Assembly (NCBI GenBank): GCA_013373595.1
Contig: JABXHO010000027.1
Coordinates: forward strand, 1 to 64,000
Length of the DNA stretch: 64,000 bases
Reading direction: 5' to 3'
DNA from: Flavobacteriales bacterium
GTDB lineage: Bacteria > Bacteroidota > Bacteroidia > Flavobacteriales_D > Crocinitomicaceae
In this document: positions 9,547 through 13,611 of the stretch, piece by piece
Position numbering within the stretch: the stretch's first letter is position 1
How the letters are laid out: each line of letters begins with the position of its first letter
Translations under genes and position numbers: made by a program
The notes under the pieces: generated by a model
What the model was told of the DNA's origin: nothing
The model's database searches: none
Seen by the model: only the letters and a program-made list of their open reading frames with translations

Positions 9547-10134
9547 TCACCCTAAAATTTTCCGAAAAGTCACATTCAATCGTGGATCAGCAATCCTTCG
9601 CTGCTTCGGAATTTCGTGTTTCCAGTTGTGTTGTAGTGCTCCAGACATGACCAACAAATCGCCATGATTTAAAATGACTTCGAACTTTTCCTTGGTTCCG
9701 TTTTTCCGAAAAACCATTTTACGACTTGCCCCAAAATTTACACTTGCAATCACGGGATTCCTTCCTAGTTCGGGTTCATTATCCGCGTGAAGTCCCATGC
9801 TGTCATTTCCATCTCGGTAATAATTGACCAAGCCGCTGTTAAACGTTGTCTGAGCAATTTCTTCTGATTTCTGTTTCAGTTCAATGAGTTCATCTGTCCA
9901 CGGAATACCTGTGAAGAGTTGATTGCTGTACACGTAGGAAACACCATCATCCGCATAGAATCGAGATAAACGCGGTTGGGGAATCGTTTTGCCAAACAGG
10001 CGAATGCTTTCCTGTTTCAGCTCTAGCTTGTTCAATAAGTCGTCCATCTCGAAAGAAAGAGAACGGTGAAAATCAGTTATCCGCTGAATAATACCCGTTT
10101 GATCATTCAATATATCATCTGTTTTCACCTTCAT
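9547..10134 (-). CDS. alkB: AlkB-type alpha-ketoglutarate-dependent dioxygenase
   Basis: Fe(II)/2-oxoglutarate oxygenase of the AlkB family, which repairs N-alkylated bases in DNA or RNA by oxidative demethylation. The iron ligands are visible: H116 and D118 in GLHADNEPE, and H173 in NWKHEIPK. R185 and R191 in RLNVTFR would bind 2-oxoglutarate. Length is 195 residues, in the usual range for short bacterial AlkB proteins. The gene is divergent from the pterin operon and shares the short promoter region between 10135 and 10258. Co-location of a DNA-repair gene with a probable light-stress operon may be meaningful, but this is inference. Confidence 0.9.
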   Translation of the reverse strand: MKVKTDDILNDQTGIIQRITDFHRSLSFEMDDLLNKLELKQESIRLFGKTIPQPRLSRFYADDGVSYVYSNQLFTGIPWTDELIELKQKSEEIAQTTFNSGLVNYYRDGNDSMGLHADNEPELGRNPVIASVNFGASRKMVFRKNGTKEKFEVILNHGDLLVMSGALQHNWKHEIPKQRRIADPRLNVTFRKILG

Positions 10135-10175: not shown

Positions 10176-10209
10176 ATTGTTTAATATTTACCTTGGTAGA
10201 TTAAACAAT
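10176..10209. promoter_or_regulatory. Operator candidate 1: inverted repeat ATTGTTTAAT-N14-ATTAAACAAT
   Basis: Perfect 10-bp arms with a 14-bp spacer. The spacer contains TTG at 10193-10195, which fits the -33 box of the pterin operon promoter. A second repeat with the same core arms and the same spacer length follows 42 bp downstream. Confidence 0.75.
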
Positions 10210-10221
10210 TTTGTATATTTG
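10193..10221 (+). promoter_or_regulatory. Promoter of the pterin operon (TTG-N18-TATATTTG)
   Basis: TTG at 10193-10195 and TATATTTG at 10214-10221 match the Bacteroidota -33/-7 pattern with good spacing. Expected transcription start is about 10226. The operon's first start codon is at 10259. Confidence 0.65.
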
Positions 10222-10251
10222 TTTAATGATGATACTAAATAATTAAACAAA
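10218..10251. promoter_or_regulatory. Operator candidate 2: inverted repeat TTTGTTTAAT-N14-ATTAAACAAA
   Basis: Perfect 10-bp arms with a 14-bp spacer. It overlaps the end of the -7 box and the predicted transcription start. The 9-bp core TTGTTTAAT is identical to operator 1. The 42-bp offset equals about four helical turns, so all four half-sites face the same side of the DNA. Confidence 0.75.
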
Positions 10252-10258
10252 ATAGATT

Positions 10259-10666
10259 TTGAGAACAGCAATCATTCGAAAAGAACACTTTAATGCCGCT
10301 CATCGTTTACACAATTCCAATTGGTCGGAAGCGAAGAACAAGGAGGTGTTTGGCAAGTGTAATAATCCCAATTTTCATGGTCACAATTACCAGTTGGAAG
10401 TGAAAGTAATTGGTGATGTTGATCCTGAAACGGGATACGTCATGGATGTGAAGGTGCTCAAAAGTATCATTCGAAAAAATGTATTGGAACGCTACGATCA
10501 TAAGAATCTCAACTTGGATGTGAGTGATTTCAAAAACTTGAATCCAACGGTTGAGAACATTGCACAAGTAGTGTACACGAACATTTTAAAAGATCTCCCT
10601 GAAGGTCTTGAACTCAAAATTAGATTATATGAAACTGAACGGAATATCGCTGAATATCCAGCCTGA
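10259..10666 (+). CDS. 6-pyruvoyl-tetrahydropterin synthase (PTPS/QueD family)
   Basis: Zinc enzyme acting on 7,8-dihydroneopterin triphosphate. Zinc ligands are His15 in AAHRL and His40/His42 in NFHGHNY. The catalytic-cysteine region reads GKCNNPNFHGHNY, which is the form I know from eukaryotic PTPS rather than the CxxxHGH form of QueD, so 6-pyruvoyl-tetrahydropterin synthesis is favoured over queuosine synthesis. The 135-residue length is normal. The start is a TTG; no ATG lies upstream of the conserved HFNAAHRL in this frame. It is the first gene of the operon and lies 4 bp ahead of the likely folE start. Confidence 0.88.
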   Translation: MRTAIIRKEHFNAAHRLHNSNWSEAKNKEVFGKCNNPNFHGHNYQLEVKVIGDVDPETGYVMDVKVLKSIIRKNVLERYDHKNLNLDVSDFKNLNPTVENIAQVVYTNILKDLPEGLELKIRLYETERNIAEYPA

Positions 10667-10670
10667 AGAA

Positions 10671-11330
10671 ATGACGGTGTCGGAAGAACTCGATCCACAT
10701 GAAGTAGGAGATCAGCATTTAATGACGAGTATTGAGACGCCAATGCGAGAAGGGGCGTTTGATCTTTCTGATGAGGAAAAGAAAAAAGAGATTGAAAAAC
10801 ACTTTCGATCAATCATGCACGTACTGGGCTTGGATCTCACGGATGATTCCCTCAAAGGAACGCCTGCTCGCGTAGCAAAAATGTACGTAGAAGAAATTTT
10901 CTCGGGACTAAATCCTGAAAATGAGCCGAAAGTGGCCTTGTTTGAAAACAAATACCAGTACAATGAAATGCTGGTGGAGAAAAACATCACGCTTTATTCG
11001 AACTGCGAACACCATTTCGTGCCGATTATCGGGCGGGCGCACATCGCCTACATTTCTAGCGGAAAAGTGATTGGCTTATCAAAGTTGAATCGAATTGCGC
11101 AGTACTATGCAAAACGTCCGCAGGTGCAGGAACGATTGACGGTTCAAATTGGCAAACACTTGCAAGAAATTCTCGAAACGGAAAGCGTAGCTGTGATTAT
11201 TGATGCAGAGCATTTGTGCGTTTCTTCGAGAGGAATTCAAGATGTCAACTCATCAACGGTGTCGGCATTTTACGGTGGCGAATTCGAGAAGAAATCAACC
11301 AAAAATGAACTCTTTAATTATTTGAAGTAA
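10671..11330 (+). CDS. folE: GTP cyclohydrolase I
   Basis: Converts GTP to 7,8-dihydroneopterin triphosphate, the entry step for folate and biopterin. The typical FolE core is visible: GTPARVAKMY, then SNCEHHFVPIIGRAHIAYI with the zinc-binding Cys and His residues, KLNRIAQYYAKRPQVQERLT, and HLCVSSRGIQ with the second zinc Cys. I chose the ATG at 10671, 4 bp after the upstream stop. The open frame runs further back to 10608 inside the previous gene, and an ATG at 10629 is also possible. Acidic residues dominate the N-terminal 45 amino acids. Pairing with a PTPS-type enzyme points to a pterin other than folate. Confidence 0.95.
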   Translation: MTVSEELDPHEVGDQHLMTSIETPMREGAFDLSDEEKKKEIEKHFRSIMHVLGLDLTDDSLKGTPARVAKMYVEEIFSGLNPENEPKVALFENKYQYNEMLVEKNITLYSNCEHHFVPIIGRAHIAYISSGKVIGLSKLNRIAQYYAKRPQVQERLTVQIGKHLQEILETESVAVIIDAEHLCVSSRGIQDVNSSTVSAFYGGEFEKKSTKNELFNYLK

Positions 11331-11331
11331 G

Positions 11332-12033
11332 ATGAAAAATTATTTAGTTATTGGCGGATCGTCTGGAATTGGAGAAGCAATTGTTCAAAAACTTTCTTCG
11401 GATGCAAACAACCATGTTGCGGCGACTTATTTCAGTCATTCGATGGAATCCGAAAGCGAAAATGTGCGTTTTTTTCATTTCAAAGCAGAGGAGGATGATC
11501 TTGGCTTCCACGATCTTCCAGATGAGATTCATGGATTTGTTTATTGTCCAGGTGCCATCGAATTGAAACCGTTCCGAAGATTAACAGAGGAAGCTATCTT
11601 GGACGATTTTAAGCTGCAAGTTCTTGGAGCAGTGAAAACCATTCAGTCGATACTTCCAAATTTAAAGGCCGCTGAAAATGCGGCTATCGTCTTGTTTTCG
11701 AGCGTTGCAGTACAGCATGGATTCAATTTTCATGCACAAGTAGCAATGTCGAAGGGAGCAATCGAAGGACTAACCAGAAGTCTCGCTGCTGAGTTCGCGC
11801 CCAAAATTCGGGTCAATTGCATTGCGCCGTCACTCACGGATACGCCGCTTGCAGGTCGATTACTCAACTCAGAAGAAAAAAAGAAGGCCAATGCAGAACG
11901 TCATCCTTTGAAACGAATTGGTGAGCCAGAAGATATTGCAGAATTGGCGACTTTTCTCTTGAGCGATCAATCCAAATGGATGACAGGTCAGGTAATTCAG
12001 CTCGATGGTGGAATGTCGACGGTAAAAATGTAG
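11332..12033 (+). CDS. SDR family oxidoreductase lacking the catalytic tyrosine
   Basis: A 233-residue Rossmann-fold protein: GGSSGIG nucleotide-binding loop (residues 8-14), serine pair at 123-124, Lys141, and the C-terminal IAPSLTDTPL and G..IQLDGG motifs. In classical SDRs a Tyr lies four residues before the active Lys; here that position is Val137 (V-A-M-S-K). The alternative FabI-type position, seven before Lys, is His134. So the usual proton donor is missing. The gene begins 1 bp after the folE stop. By position it could take the role of sepiapterin reductase in a biopterin-like pathway, but that is inference. Confidence 0.87.
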   Translation: MKNYLVIGGSSGIGEAIVQKLSSDANNHVAATYFSHSMESESENVRFFHFKAEEDDLGFHDLPDEIHGFVYCPGAIELKPFRRLTEEAILDDFKLQVLGAVKTIQSILPNLKAAENAAIVLFSSVAVQHGFNFHAQVAMSKGAIEGLTRSLAAEFAPKIRVNCIAPSLTDTPLAGRLLNSEEKKKANAERHPLKRIGEPEDIAELATFLLSDQSKWMTGQVIQLDGGMSTVKM

Positions 12034-12035
12034 TT

Positions 12036-12203
12036 ATGATGAAATTATTCAAGAAAAAATCGCCTGTAGAGAAGCTGAATCAAAAATATGCGAAGTTGAT
12101 GAAGGAGGCACATCAATTGTCCTCTGTTGATCGCAGAAAAAGTGACGCAAAAGTTTCTGAAGCTGAAGCGGTATTGAATCAAATTAAAGAATTAGAAGGT
12201 TAA
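12036..12203 (+). CDS. Lacal_2735 family protein
   Basis: A 55-residue highly charged protein starting MMKLFKKK, with an internal YAKLMKEAHQLSSVDRRKSD segment and a helical tail. This matches, from memory, the small Lacal_2735 family of Flavobacteria, of unknown function. The start is 2 bp after the SDR stop, and its TAA overlaps the ATG of the SRPBCC gene (TAATG), which implies translational coupling. It is probably a short coiled coil. Confidence 0.8.
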   Translation: MMKLFKKKSPVEKLNQKYAKLMKEAHQLSSVDRRKSDAKVSEAEAVLNQIKELEG

Positions 12204-12682
12204 TGGCATTCTATCAATTACATAAAACGCAAAAGGTGAATTGTAGTCTGGACGAAATCTGGGCATTTATTTCATCTCCCAGAAATTTAAAGGAAATTAC
12301 GCCCGACTATATGGGATTTGATATCACTTCCAAGGATACGCCAGATGTAATGTATCCAGGGCTGATTATCACCTACAAAGTGAGTCCGCTTTTGGGGATC
12401 AAAACAAACTGGATGACGGAAATTACACAAGTGGTCGACAAACAGTTTTTCATTGATGAGCAACGAATCGGGCCCTACAAGCTTTGGCATCATCAGCATT
12501 TCGTAGAGGAAATTGAAGGAGGTGTGATGATGAAAGATATTGTGACTTACGCCCCACCATTTGGGTTTCTCGGAGCGATCATGAATTCCCTTGTGATTCG
12601 AAAAAAGTTGGAAGAAATATTTGACTACCGATTCAAAGCGGTGGAACAAAAGTTTGGACCATTTCAGGAAAAGAATGGATGA
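12203..12682 (+). CDS. SRPBCC family protein
   Basis: A 159-residue single-domain protein of the START/Bet v1-like (SRPBCC) superfamily, which forms a deep ligand pocket. Seen in the sequence: an N-terminal strand, a helix region DEIWAFISSPRNLKEITP, central strands ending in MMKDIVTYAPPFGFLG, and a long C-terminal helix (IFDYRFKAVEQKF). No catalytic motif is evident. Homologs in Bacteroidota and Proteobacteria often sit beside photolyase or cryptochrome genes (recollection). A role in binding a hydrophobic or pterin ligand is possible but unproven. It overlaps both neighbours by a few bases, so it is tightly coupled in the operon. Confidence 0.85.
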   Translation: MAFYQLHKTQKVNCSLDEIWAFISSPRNLKEITPDYMGFDITSKDTPDVMYPGLIITYKVSPLLGIKTNWMTEITQVVDKQFFIDEQRIGPYKLWHHQHFVEEIEGGVMMKDIVTYAPPFGFLGAIMNSLVIRKKLEEIFDYRFKAVEQKFGPFQEKNG

Positions 12683-12944
12683 AAGAACACTAAATAGGGT
12701 GATTGAAATGGCGTGGGAAGATCGAACGCCGTTCGAGGCAATTGAGTTTCAATTCGGATTGTCGGAAGCAGAGGTGATCAAAACGATGCGATCTCACCTA
12801 AAACCGTCAAGCTTTCGAATGTGGCGAAAACGGGTGAATAGTGGTGTAAGTTCGAAGCACGCGAAAAAACGTTCAAGTGATATTTCTCGCTTCAAATGTT
12901 CGCGTCAACGGGTGATTAGCAACAACAAGATTTCAAAACGATGA
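12675..12944 (+). CDS. TIGR03643/DUF2805 family protein
   Basis: An 89-residue basic protein. The first 60 residues match the TIGR03643 pattern: IEMAWEDRTPFEAIE, FGLSEAEVI and LKPSSFRMWRKRV. The helical LSEAEVI segment looks like a helix-turn-helix and the remainder is Lys/Arg-rich, so nucleic-acid binding is plausible but unproven. I start at the ATG at 12675, which overlaps the SRPBCC stop by 8 bp. From memory, this family is repeatedly found in light-induced, LitR-type gene clusters. Confidence 0.85.
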   Translation: MDERTLNRVIEMAWEDRTPFEAIEFQFGLSEAEVIKTMRSHLKPSSFRMWRKRVNSGVSSKHAKKRSSDISRFKCSRQRVISNNKISKR

Positions 12945-12960
12945 ACTAAAAACGATAGTG

Positions 12961-13611
12961 ATGATACATTTAAGTAAGAAAGACATTCAAGAAATGAATC
13001 GAATTCGCCGTTTGAATATCATTAACGGCATCTCAGGTGTGAAACCTGCGAATCTCATCGGAACTTATTCAGCCGAAACAGGGACAAACGTGGCCATTTT
13101 CAGCTCAGTGGTTCACCTCGGAAGCGATCCTGCCTTGTTAGGGTTTATCATGCGTCCTGTTTCCGATGTACCGAGAAATACCTACACAAATATCAAAGAG
13201 AATGGTTATTTCACAATCAACCATGTACATGAATCGTTCATTGAGAAAGCGCACTATACTTCGGCGAAGTTCGACGTAATTGTTTCGGAGTTCGAAGCGT
13301 GTGGATTAACGGAAGAATACTTGTACGATTTCACCGCTCCTTTTGTGAAGGAAAGTTGATTGAAATTGGGAATGAAATTAGTGGAAGAAATCGATATTAA
13401 AGCAAACGACACGAAGCTCATCGTGGGAGAAATTCAAGAGTTGATTTTACCCGAAGATTGCTTGGATGACAAAGGCTACGTGCGTTTGGACCGTCTATTC
13501 GATGTGGGGATCGGTGGACTGAACAGCTATTACAGCTTACGAAGAATGAAGTCGTTTCCGTATGCGCGTGTGTCTGAAGTTCCTGAATTCTCCGTAGGAA
13601 TGAAGCTTTAG
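12961..13611 (+). pseudogene. Flavin reductase family protein interrupted by an in-frame TGA
   Basis: Two adjacent ORFs in the same frame together make one flavin reductase-like FMN-binding split-barrel protein of about 216 residues. The first part (to 13356) carries the FMN-binding core with FSSVVHLGSDPALLGFIMRP and SDVPRNTYTNI, and ends ...APFVKES. A TGA at 13357-13359 follows, then the same frame resumes LKLGMKLVEEI to the TAG at 13609. Homologs continue straight through this point with a single residue in place of the stop. This could be a nonsense mutation, a read-through site or a base-calling error. I start at the ATG at 12961 (a GTG lies 3 bp earlier). It is the last gene of the pterin operon. 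Confidence 0.8.

Follow-up and report, generated by a model that had tools for sequence, protein, structure and literature searches.

A second pterin operon in a Flavobacteriales bacterium shares an operator with a CarH-like regulator and is probably light-controlled

Why would a bacterium that already has one pair of genes for 6-pyruvoyl-tetrahydropterin synthase (PTPS) and GTP cyclohydrolase I (FolE) keep a second pair in a compact operon? The question is raised by a 64,000-nucleotide stretch from a Flavobacteriales bacterium of the family Crocinitomicaceae (assembly GCA_013373595.1, contig JABXHO010000027.1, positions 1 to 64,000; here called the window), in which the interval 10259-13611 consists of seven plus-strand genes in the order PTPS, folE, short-chain dehydrogenase/reductase (SDR), Lacal_2735, SRPBCC, DUF2805 and flavin reductase. 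A first-pass annotation of the window had placed this operon in a LitR/CarH-type light regulon and had read it as a putative tetrahydrobiopterin-like pathway. The regulon membership is supported by an operator shared within the genome and across the class Bacteroidia, and by the location of window-type folE genes near CarH-type MerR, carotenoid and photolyase genes. The shared operator, this co-location and the cobalamin motif of the regulators together suggest that the operon probably encodes an additional pterin pathway with a dedicated purpose, controlled through light by a repressor of the CarH type (a B12-binding MerR), a reading to which we assign a probability of about 0.78.

The operator and its regulator

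The 124-bp region between the PTPS gene and a divergent AlkB-like gene holds two perfect operators, which bracket the predicted promoter of the operon (Table 1). The promoter was assigned by the Bacteroidota consensus. The operator arm TTGTTTAAT occurs four times in the window, all within 10177-10250. At least four arms per window were also seen in 8 of 100 shuffles, while two dyads were reached in 3 of 100 (0.21 are expected at up to three mismatches, and the two in the window have none). Four arms are thus not rare by themselves; it is their clustering into two dyads that is rare. Among 83 oriented sites drawn from many genomes, 14 have the element TAnnTTTG at offset -5 from the operator, as operator 2 does; in total, 45 such elements were found at oriented sites compared with 10 for the reversed motif.

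The operon promoter shares this putative binding site with a regulator gene in the same genome. Nine sites with at most two mismatches are found genome-wide: two at the pterin operon, two flanking a CarH-like MerR gene, one at a fasciclin gene, one at a CIA30 gene and three elsewhere. The MerR gene, a regulator of the kind that the first-pass annotation had proposed looking for, lies beside crtI-crtB-idi-crtZ; the sites have no mismatch at the MerR gene and one at crtI. Two-mismatch operators precede the fasciclin gene and also a short frame and the CIA30 gene, and a three-mismatch operator precedes a cryptochrome-DUF2256-FeS photolyase run. The regulator scores above the cut-offs of MerR_1 and B12-binding_2, with the B12-binding model at 26.8 bits, under its cut-off of 32.1. 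It resembles Thermus thermophilus CarH/LitR in its MerR and B12-binding domains, its W-x9-E-H motif and its ligand His, and carotenoid genes adjoin it here; the protein similarity, however, is modest (56 bits), the best Protein Data Bank (PDB) matches being CarH and 3whp (LitR). W-x9-E-H and the His, the cobalamin motif of CarH, were found in 25 of 25 distinct MerR proteins at operator sites across the class.

Two single sites deserve mention. At L023 (5206-5237, G000:C164), an operator stands ahead of a fasciclin-domain protein. At L019 (5813-5844, G000:C44:6812), all 16 arm bases are present in an operator found ahead of genes that resemble, by eye, a contractile injection system or tail sheath cluster, for which light control would be odd.

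How widely the operator is used was assessed in two sets of loci. The first consists of 80 PTPS loci found by similarity to the window PTPS. An operator with at most two mismatches in 16 bases lies within 400 bp upstream in 35 of them, Gilvibacter sediminis and an Algoriphagus being two culturable carriers with an operator ahead of PTPS; the PTPS upstream regions contain 42 sites in 31.8 kb, compared with nine in the remaining 1.38 Mb of these loci. The 42 sites share one spacing, whereas no other spacing from 4 to 30 gave more than eight, and the reversed control gave one. Since these loci were selected for likeness to the window, counts from evenly drawn genomes weigh more. A set of 119 evenly drawn Bacteroidia genomes contains 70 exact operators, spread over 44 of the genomes (reversed control, two). 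The 70 neighbourhoods, some of which end early at contig ends, were annotated with custom profiles, and a CarH-type MerR, carotenoid, photolyase-family, DUF2256, fasciclin or CIA30 gene was counted as a strict light gene. Such a gene lies within 5 kb of 46 of the 70 perfect sites, and a light or pterin gene at 54. At the same distance, fasciclin genes are present at eight sites and pterin genes at 18, and PTPS or folE is found within 500 bp at 13. The operator-picked loci have both folE and PTPS in 11 cases, folE only in two and PTPS only in one (L260).

L260 (G018:C7), from the same family as the window, has a perfect operator followed by a crtI-crtB-idi-PTPS-photolyase run without folE. Operator variants in which 17 rather than 16 bases separate the eight-base arms were seen at L061 (upstream of 1192) and at L032 and L033 (upstream of 10001); in the two Roseivirga loci among these, the arms read TTGTTCAA/TTGAACAA.

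Two clades of folE

A quick tree of FolE separates two clades, A and B (support of 100 in the Shimodaira-Hasegawa-like approximate likelihood-ratio test). The window folE is type B, while the other folE of the genome, paired with its own PTPS on contig C153, is type A. Two clear folE copies are present in 25 of the 119 genomes. Among these, no type-A copy has a light gene within 8 kb (0/23, with the strict light-gene test likewise at 0/23), and an operator is near only one, 6 kb away. In contrast, a light gene is near 15 of 27 type-B copies (14 of 26 if the window copy is left out) and an operator near 13 of 27. The difference in light-gene proximity (14/26 vs 0/23) has a Fisher p of 1.6e-5, uncorrected for the relatedness of the genomes. 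A conserved gene neighbourhood, which the first-pass annotation had suggested searching for across Bacteroidota, is seen at L156 and L163, where MerR-crtI-crtB-idi-PTPS-folE-SDR-flavin reductase-photolyase lie on one strand.

Photolyase genes were also observed a few kb upstream of type-A PTPS-PTPS-folE in five loci (L052, L066, L076, L099 and L101; three titled Chitinophagaceae, one Niastella and one unclassified), with no operator at the PTPS. At L099 the photolyase itself has a two-mismatch operator site.

Enzymes and gene order of the operon

FolE is an orthodox GTP cyclohydrolase I, which passes the TIGR00063 equivalog cut-off and has the CEHH and HLCVSSRG motifs, presumably involved in zinc binding. 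The PTPS contains CNNPNFHGH, YDHKNL and YETERN and aligns with 1b66 at CNNPNxHGH, DHKNL and YET; these hold the catalytic Cys, Asp-His and Glu and the zinc His. Its best PDB matches are 1b66 and 3i2b, the rat and human enzymes. PTPS family membership is given by PF01242, with the NCBIfam model TIGR00039 at 93.9, under its cut-off of 125.5. The QueD model TIGR03367 reaches 75.0 against a cut-off of 89.25, and the best 6-carboxytetrahydropterin synthase in PDB scores 40 bits against 122 for 1b66. By sequence comparison, the window PTPS is thus nearest to mammalian PTPS and not to QueD. The first-pass annotation had called its active site eukaryote-like, and the stretch GKCNNPNFHGHNY is indeed mammal-like. 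As a special mark of the operon, however, this feature was rejected, as the housekeeping copies share the active site: C-x5-HGH was present at all 13 Bacteroidota PTPS loci inspected, including the two further copies of this genome.

The SDR had been taken for sepiapterin reductase, the last step of tetrahydrobiopterin synthesis. That assignment was rejected, because the Tyr of YxxxK, a catalytic residue of classical SDRs, is I or V in 38 of 38 close family members. In the same alignment, six of eight distant SDRs keep the Tyr and the other two are FabI-like. Tetrahydrobiopterin as the end product is therefore unproven; the pathway resembles animal and cyanobacterial tetrahydrobiopterin synthesis in FolE and a PTPS with a mammal-like active site but differs in the Tyr-less SDR. 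The fold is predicted to be that of an SDR (mean predicted local distance difference test score, pLDDT, 90.5), and His134 (i-7) and Lys141 are invariant in an alignment of 35. The His occupies the place of the FabI Tyr; Y-x6-K chemistry as in enoyl reductases is not claimed, as a classical reductase with a normal Tyr also has His at i-7.

Tyr-less relatives (42% and 41% identity) are found on Mesorhizobium and Methylobacterium plasmids. The former lies among genes for fasciclin, CIA30, DUF1365, cyclopropane synthase and FeS-type photolyase, and the latter adjoins an FeS-type photolyase, which places members of the family in photo-oxidative gene sets outside Bacteroidota as well. Of the three plasmid places inspected, the one on a Spirosoma plasmid (L214) has a Tyr-less SDR but no light gene nearby. 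The two Alphaproteobacterial genes (L209, 6001-6723; L210, 6001-6753) both stand beside an FeS-type photolyase, and the L209 neighbourhood also has MsrPQ.

Six of the seven products are matched by curated Pfam or NCBIfam profiles; the SRPBCC-like protein has no match in either, and its name is that of the first-pass annotation. Packing is as tight as had been described: PTPS/folE overlap by 38 bp, Lacal_2735/SRPBCC by 1 bp and SRPBCC/DUF2805 by 8 bp, and the remaining gaps are 1, 2 and 13-16 bp. The gene list drawn up in the first pass thus stands, with two amendments, namely that PTPS precedes folE and that an in-frame TGA (13357-13359) breaks up the flavin reductase gene. All seven genes recur in identical order in the closest relative, L026 (an uncultured Fluviicola contig), which argues that the arrangement is not due to chance. 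L026 has a sense codon at the TGA and an intact copy of the gene; a pseudogene, a sequencing error and a strain variant are candidate explanations.

For DUF2805, a helical bundle is predicted (pLDDT 78), and the best PDB structure match has an E value of 2.3. No function is claimed from structure, the names returned being weak helix-turn-helix-type ones, and a profile search of PDB gave one match (E 0.55), taken as chance. Of three places with DUF2805 inspected on Gammaproteobacteria plasmids, L212 has photolyase and flavin reductase genes nearby and L211 and L213 do not. The AlkB-like DNA-repair oxygenase gene diverges from the region that carries both operators, and it may, judged by position alone, belong to the same regulon.

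Table 1. Features of the pterin operon and its upstream region, in window coordinates
Feature	Coordinates	Strand	Remarks
AlkB-like 2-oxoglutarate-Fe(II) oxygenase	9547-10134	-	PF13532 109 bits; NCBIfam AlkB models far under cut-off; divergent from operon
Operator 1, TTGTTTAAT-N14-ATTAAACAA	10177-10208		zero mismatches; covers -33 element
Probable Bacteroidota-type promoter	10193-10221	+	TTG 10193-10195, 18 bp, TATATTTG 10214-10221; read from sequence
Operator 2, same sequence as operator 1	10219-10250		42 bp after operator 1; overlaps -7 element and probable transcription start
PTPS family, TTG start	10259-10666	+	PF01242 121 bits
folE, GTP cyclohydrolase I, type B	10629-11330	+	TIGR00063 223.8 vs cut-off 181.6; ATG 10629, longer frame from 10608
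Tyr-less SDR	11332-12033	+	PF13561 139 bits
Lacal_2735/DUF6435 small protein	12036-12203	+	NF033487 82 bits; PF20027
SRPBCC-like protein	12203-12682	+	homologues present in some light clusters
DUF2805/TIGR03643 protein	12675-12944	+	ATG 12675; PF10985 123 bits, TIGR03643 117 bits (searched from 12678)
Flavin reductase-like gene	12958-13611	+	PF01613 Flavin_Reduct 49 bits on first piece; two frames listed

Alternatives, related systems and meaning

The operon, the operator, the regulator and the co-location can be read from the sequence; light induction, the exact pterin and its use are what we infer from this arrangement. In the dark, the repressor would occupy both operators, and light would release it, as homology to Thermus CarH suggests. 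Expression would raise GTP cyclohydrolase and PTPS, leading through dihydroneopterin triphosphate to a 6-substituted tetrahydropterin. Through the same operator, light would also activate carotenoid synthesis and, as weaker site matches suggest, the genes for fasciclin, CIA30 and cryptochrome/photolyase. Completing, binding or recycling the pterin, or assisting co-induced photolyases, is the probable task of the SDR, SRPBCC, DUF2805 and flavin reductase proteins.

Several observations weigh against a light-switched pathway. Within the genome, operators with up to three mismatches occur in 18 places compared with 11 for a control pattern, so that only the best-scoring sites are informative and the cryptochrome site is weak; even among the nine sites with at most two mismatches, three lie at genes with no recognisable light connection. 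In 16 of the 70 class-wide neighbourhoods, neither a strict light gene nor a pterin gene was found within 5 kb. Among the similarity-picked PTPS loci, 45 of 80 have no operator within 400 bp; 31 of these are type B, including six of seven Dyadobacter loci. In the two-folE genomes, light genes are missing from the vicinity of 12 of 26 type-B copies, and among the 139 FolE rows taken together the light label falls on 61 of 97 type-B but also on 6 of 42 type-A entries. A type-B folE that is the only copy of its genome can be without light gene and operator (L206), and a photolyase-family gene lies within 10 kb of DUF2805 in only 17 of 42 loci. Finally, in 14 light clusters chosen by their folE, PTPS is absent beside folE in seven; the presence of folE in all 14 was rejected as an argument, being circular given how the clusters were chosen.

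This last count leaves room for a role in folate replacement. Reduced folates are lost to light and to singlet oxygen, and an extra GTP cyclohydrolase could refill folate and any methenyltetrahydrofolate photolyase antenna, with PTPS and SDR as accessories. PTPS, however, diverts the intermediate away from folate and has kept its catalytic Cys; moreover, the operator-picked loci, 11 of 14 with both genes and L260 without folE, favour a PTPS product. The photolyase of the L156 cluster has as its best matches 1tez and 1owl, presumably Anacystis photolyase, and the Asn-Glu motif of the E. coli photolyase antenna was not seen in it. The Rhodobacter singlet-oxygen regulon, in whose accessible description folE2 appears and no PTPS is seen (PMC7074977), points the other way, and altogether we regard folate replacement as unlikely. 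The operon might instead supply cofactor to an aromatic amino-acid hydroxylase. As the first-pass annotation noted, the window has neither hydroxylase nor cryptochrome; elsewhere, however, the genome has one hydroxylase (contig C108), and three photolyase-family genes were found. Hydroxylase (27/119) and DUF2805 (43/119) co-occur in 14 genomes where about 10 are expected (p 0.045), at most a weak association. No operator match with up to three mismatches lies on C108, and the hydroxylase is present in 6 of 25 two-folE genomes, the same share as overall, which makes this role very improbable.

The regulator might also respond not to light directly but to a LOV partner, to redox state or to the B12 level, and the operon would then be a stress or vitamin response. 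Pseudomonas class II LitR is switched by a LOV protein, according to the accessible part of PMC9758184. The cobalamin motif in 25 of 25 regulators and the carotenoid and photolyase genes among the targets nevertheless render a regulator of this kind less probable still than folate replacement. That the genes are ordinary folate or queuosine genes with chance neighbours has a parallel in some Bacteroidota, whose only pair is a type-B PTPS-folE with no light gene or operator near (L206 and many others). For the window we consider it highly implausible, given the operator and co-location statistics, the QueD score and the separate pair on C153. The first-pass annotation had tied its own reading to homologues lying beside light genes and to a product other than ordinary folate or queuosine precursor, and co-location of this kind was found.

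A light-switched pterin operon would have parallels in other phyla, as GTP cyclohydrolase genes in light (Pseudomonas) and singlet-oxygen (Rhodobacter) regulons are already known. According to the accessible text of PMC9758184, Pseudomonas class II LitR (PplR/PmlR), a B12-domain MerR repressor, controls a light regulon that includes photolyase, a cryptochrome-like protein, an SDR, cryB and the pterin operon folM-folE-folX, with light induction of 2.4-2.5-fold for folM and 1.6-3.3-fold for folE. The Bacteroidota sets share with it the B12-domain MerR, a GTP cyclohydrolase pterin operon, photolyase, a cryptochrome-like gene and an SDR. In Pseudomonas, however, FolX/FolM (monapterin) replaces PTPS, the operator is TGTACA-N12-TGTACA, a LOV partner is used and no carotenoid genes are seen in the described set (PMC9758184). 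The Rhodobacter RpoE-ChrR regulon, as far as PMC7074977 describes it, likewise combines photolyase (phrA), GTP cyclohydrolase (folE2), fasciclin (RSP_1409) and SDR (RSP_1087) genes, but it is under sigma/anti-sigma control and has FolE2 in place of FolE.

Looser parallels concern pterins and light-related traits. Pterin metabolism has been described as the most predictive gene cluster for bacterial structural colour in Bacteroidetes and Proteobacteria, a light-related trait, and the accessible text names neither an operon nor a regulator (PMC11260094); later work points to molybdopterin, as outlined in a review (PMC13259868). Cyanobacterial pterins have been tied to UV-A protection and phototaxis in the portion available of PMC3546692, while the roles of unconjugated pterins in non-phototrophic bacteria are described as poorly understood in the available part of the review (PMC13259868). 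No publication on a pterin light regulon in Bacteroidota was found in a search that took in few subscription papers, and neither the operator nor the Tyr-less SDR turned up in literature searches in which neither was searched by name.

As to the use of the pterin, photo-oxidative protection and the provision of a cofactor to the co-induced photolyase/cryptochrome system have, taken together, about an even chance, and a use other than these or folate replacement is possible but clearly less probable. More tentatively, an undescribed reduced pterin, switched by a B12 photoreceptor across Bacteroidota and finished or handled by the Tyr-less SDR family, might protect against light or serve the co-induced cryptochrome/photolyase system as a light-harvesting or redox cofactor. 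If so, the Mesorhizobium plasmid set (SDR, fasciclin, CIA30 and FeS-type photolyase) would make the module cross-phylum under different sensors. In a major aquatic phylum, the probable light-regulated pathway connects pterin genes with a defined operator and with a B12 photoreceptor. The question of pterin function thereby gains a switch, a set of genes and species in which it can be tested, and the pathway predicts the Tyr-less SDR, DUF2805 and SRPBCC genes as new light genes. The operator may also be a concrete lead for Chryseobacterium, in which carotenoids are light-induced, yet the accessible text of PMC7064467 reports no car or lit genes.

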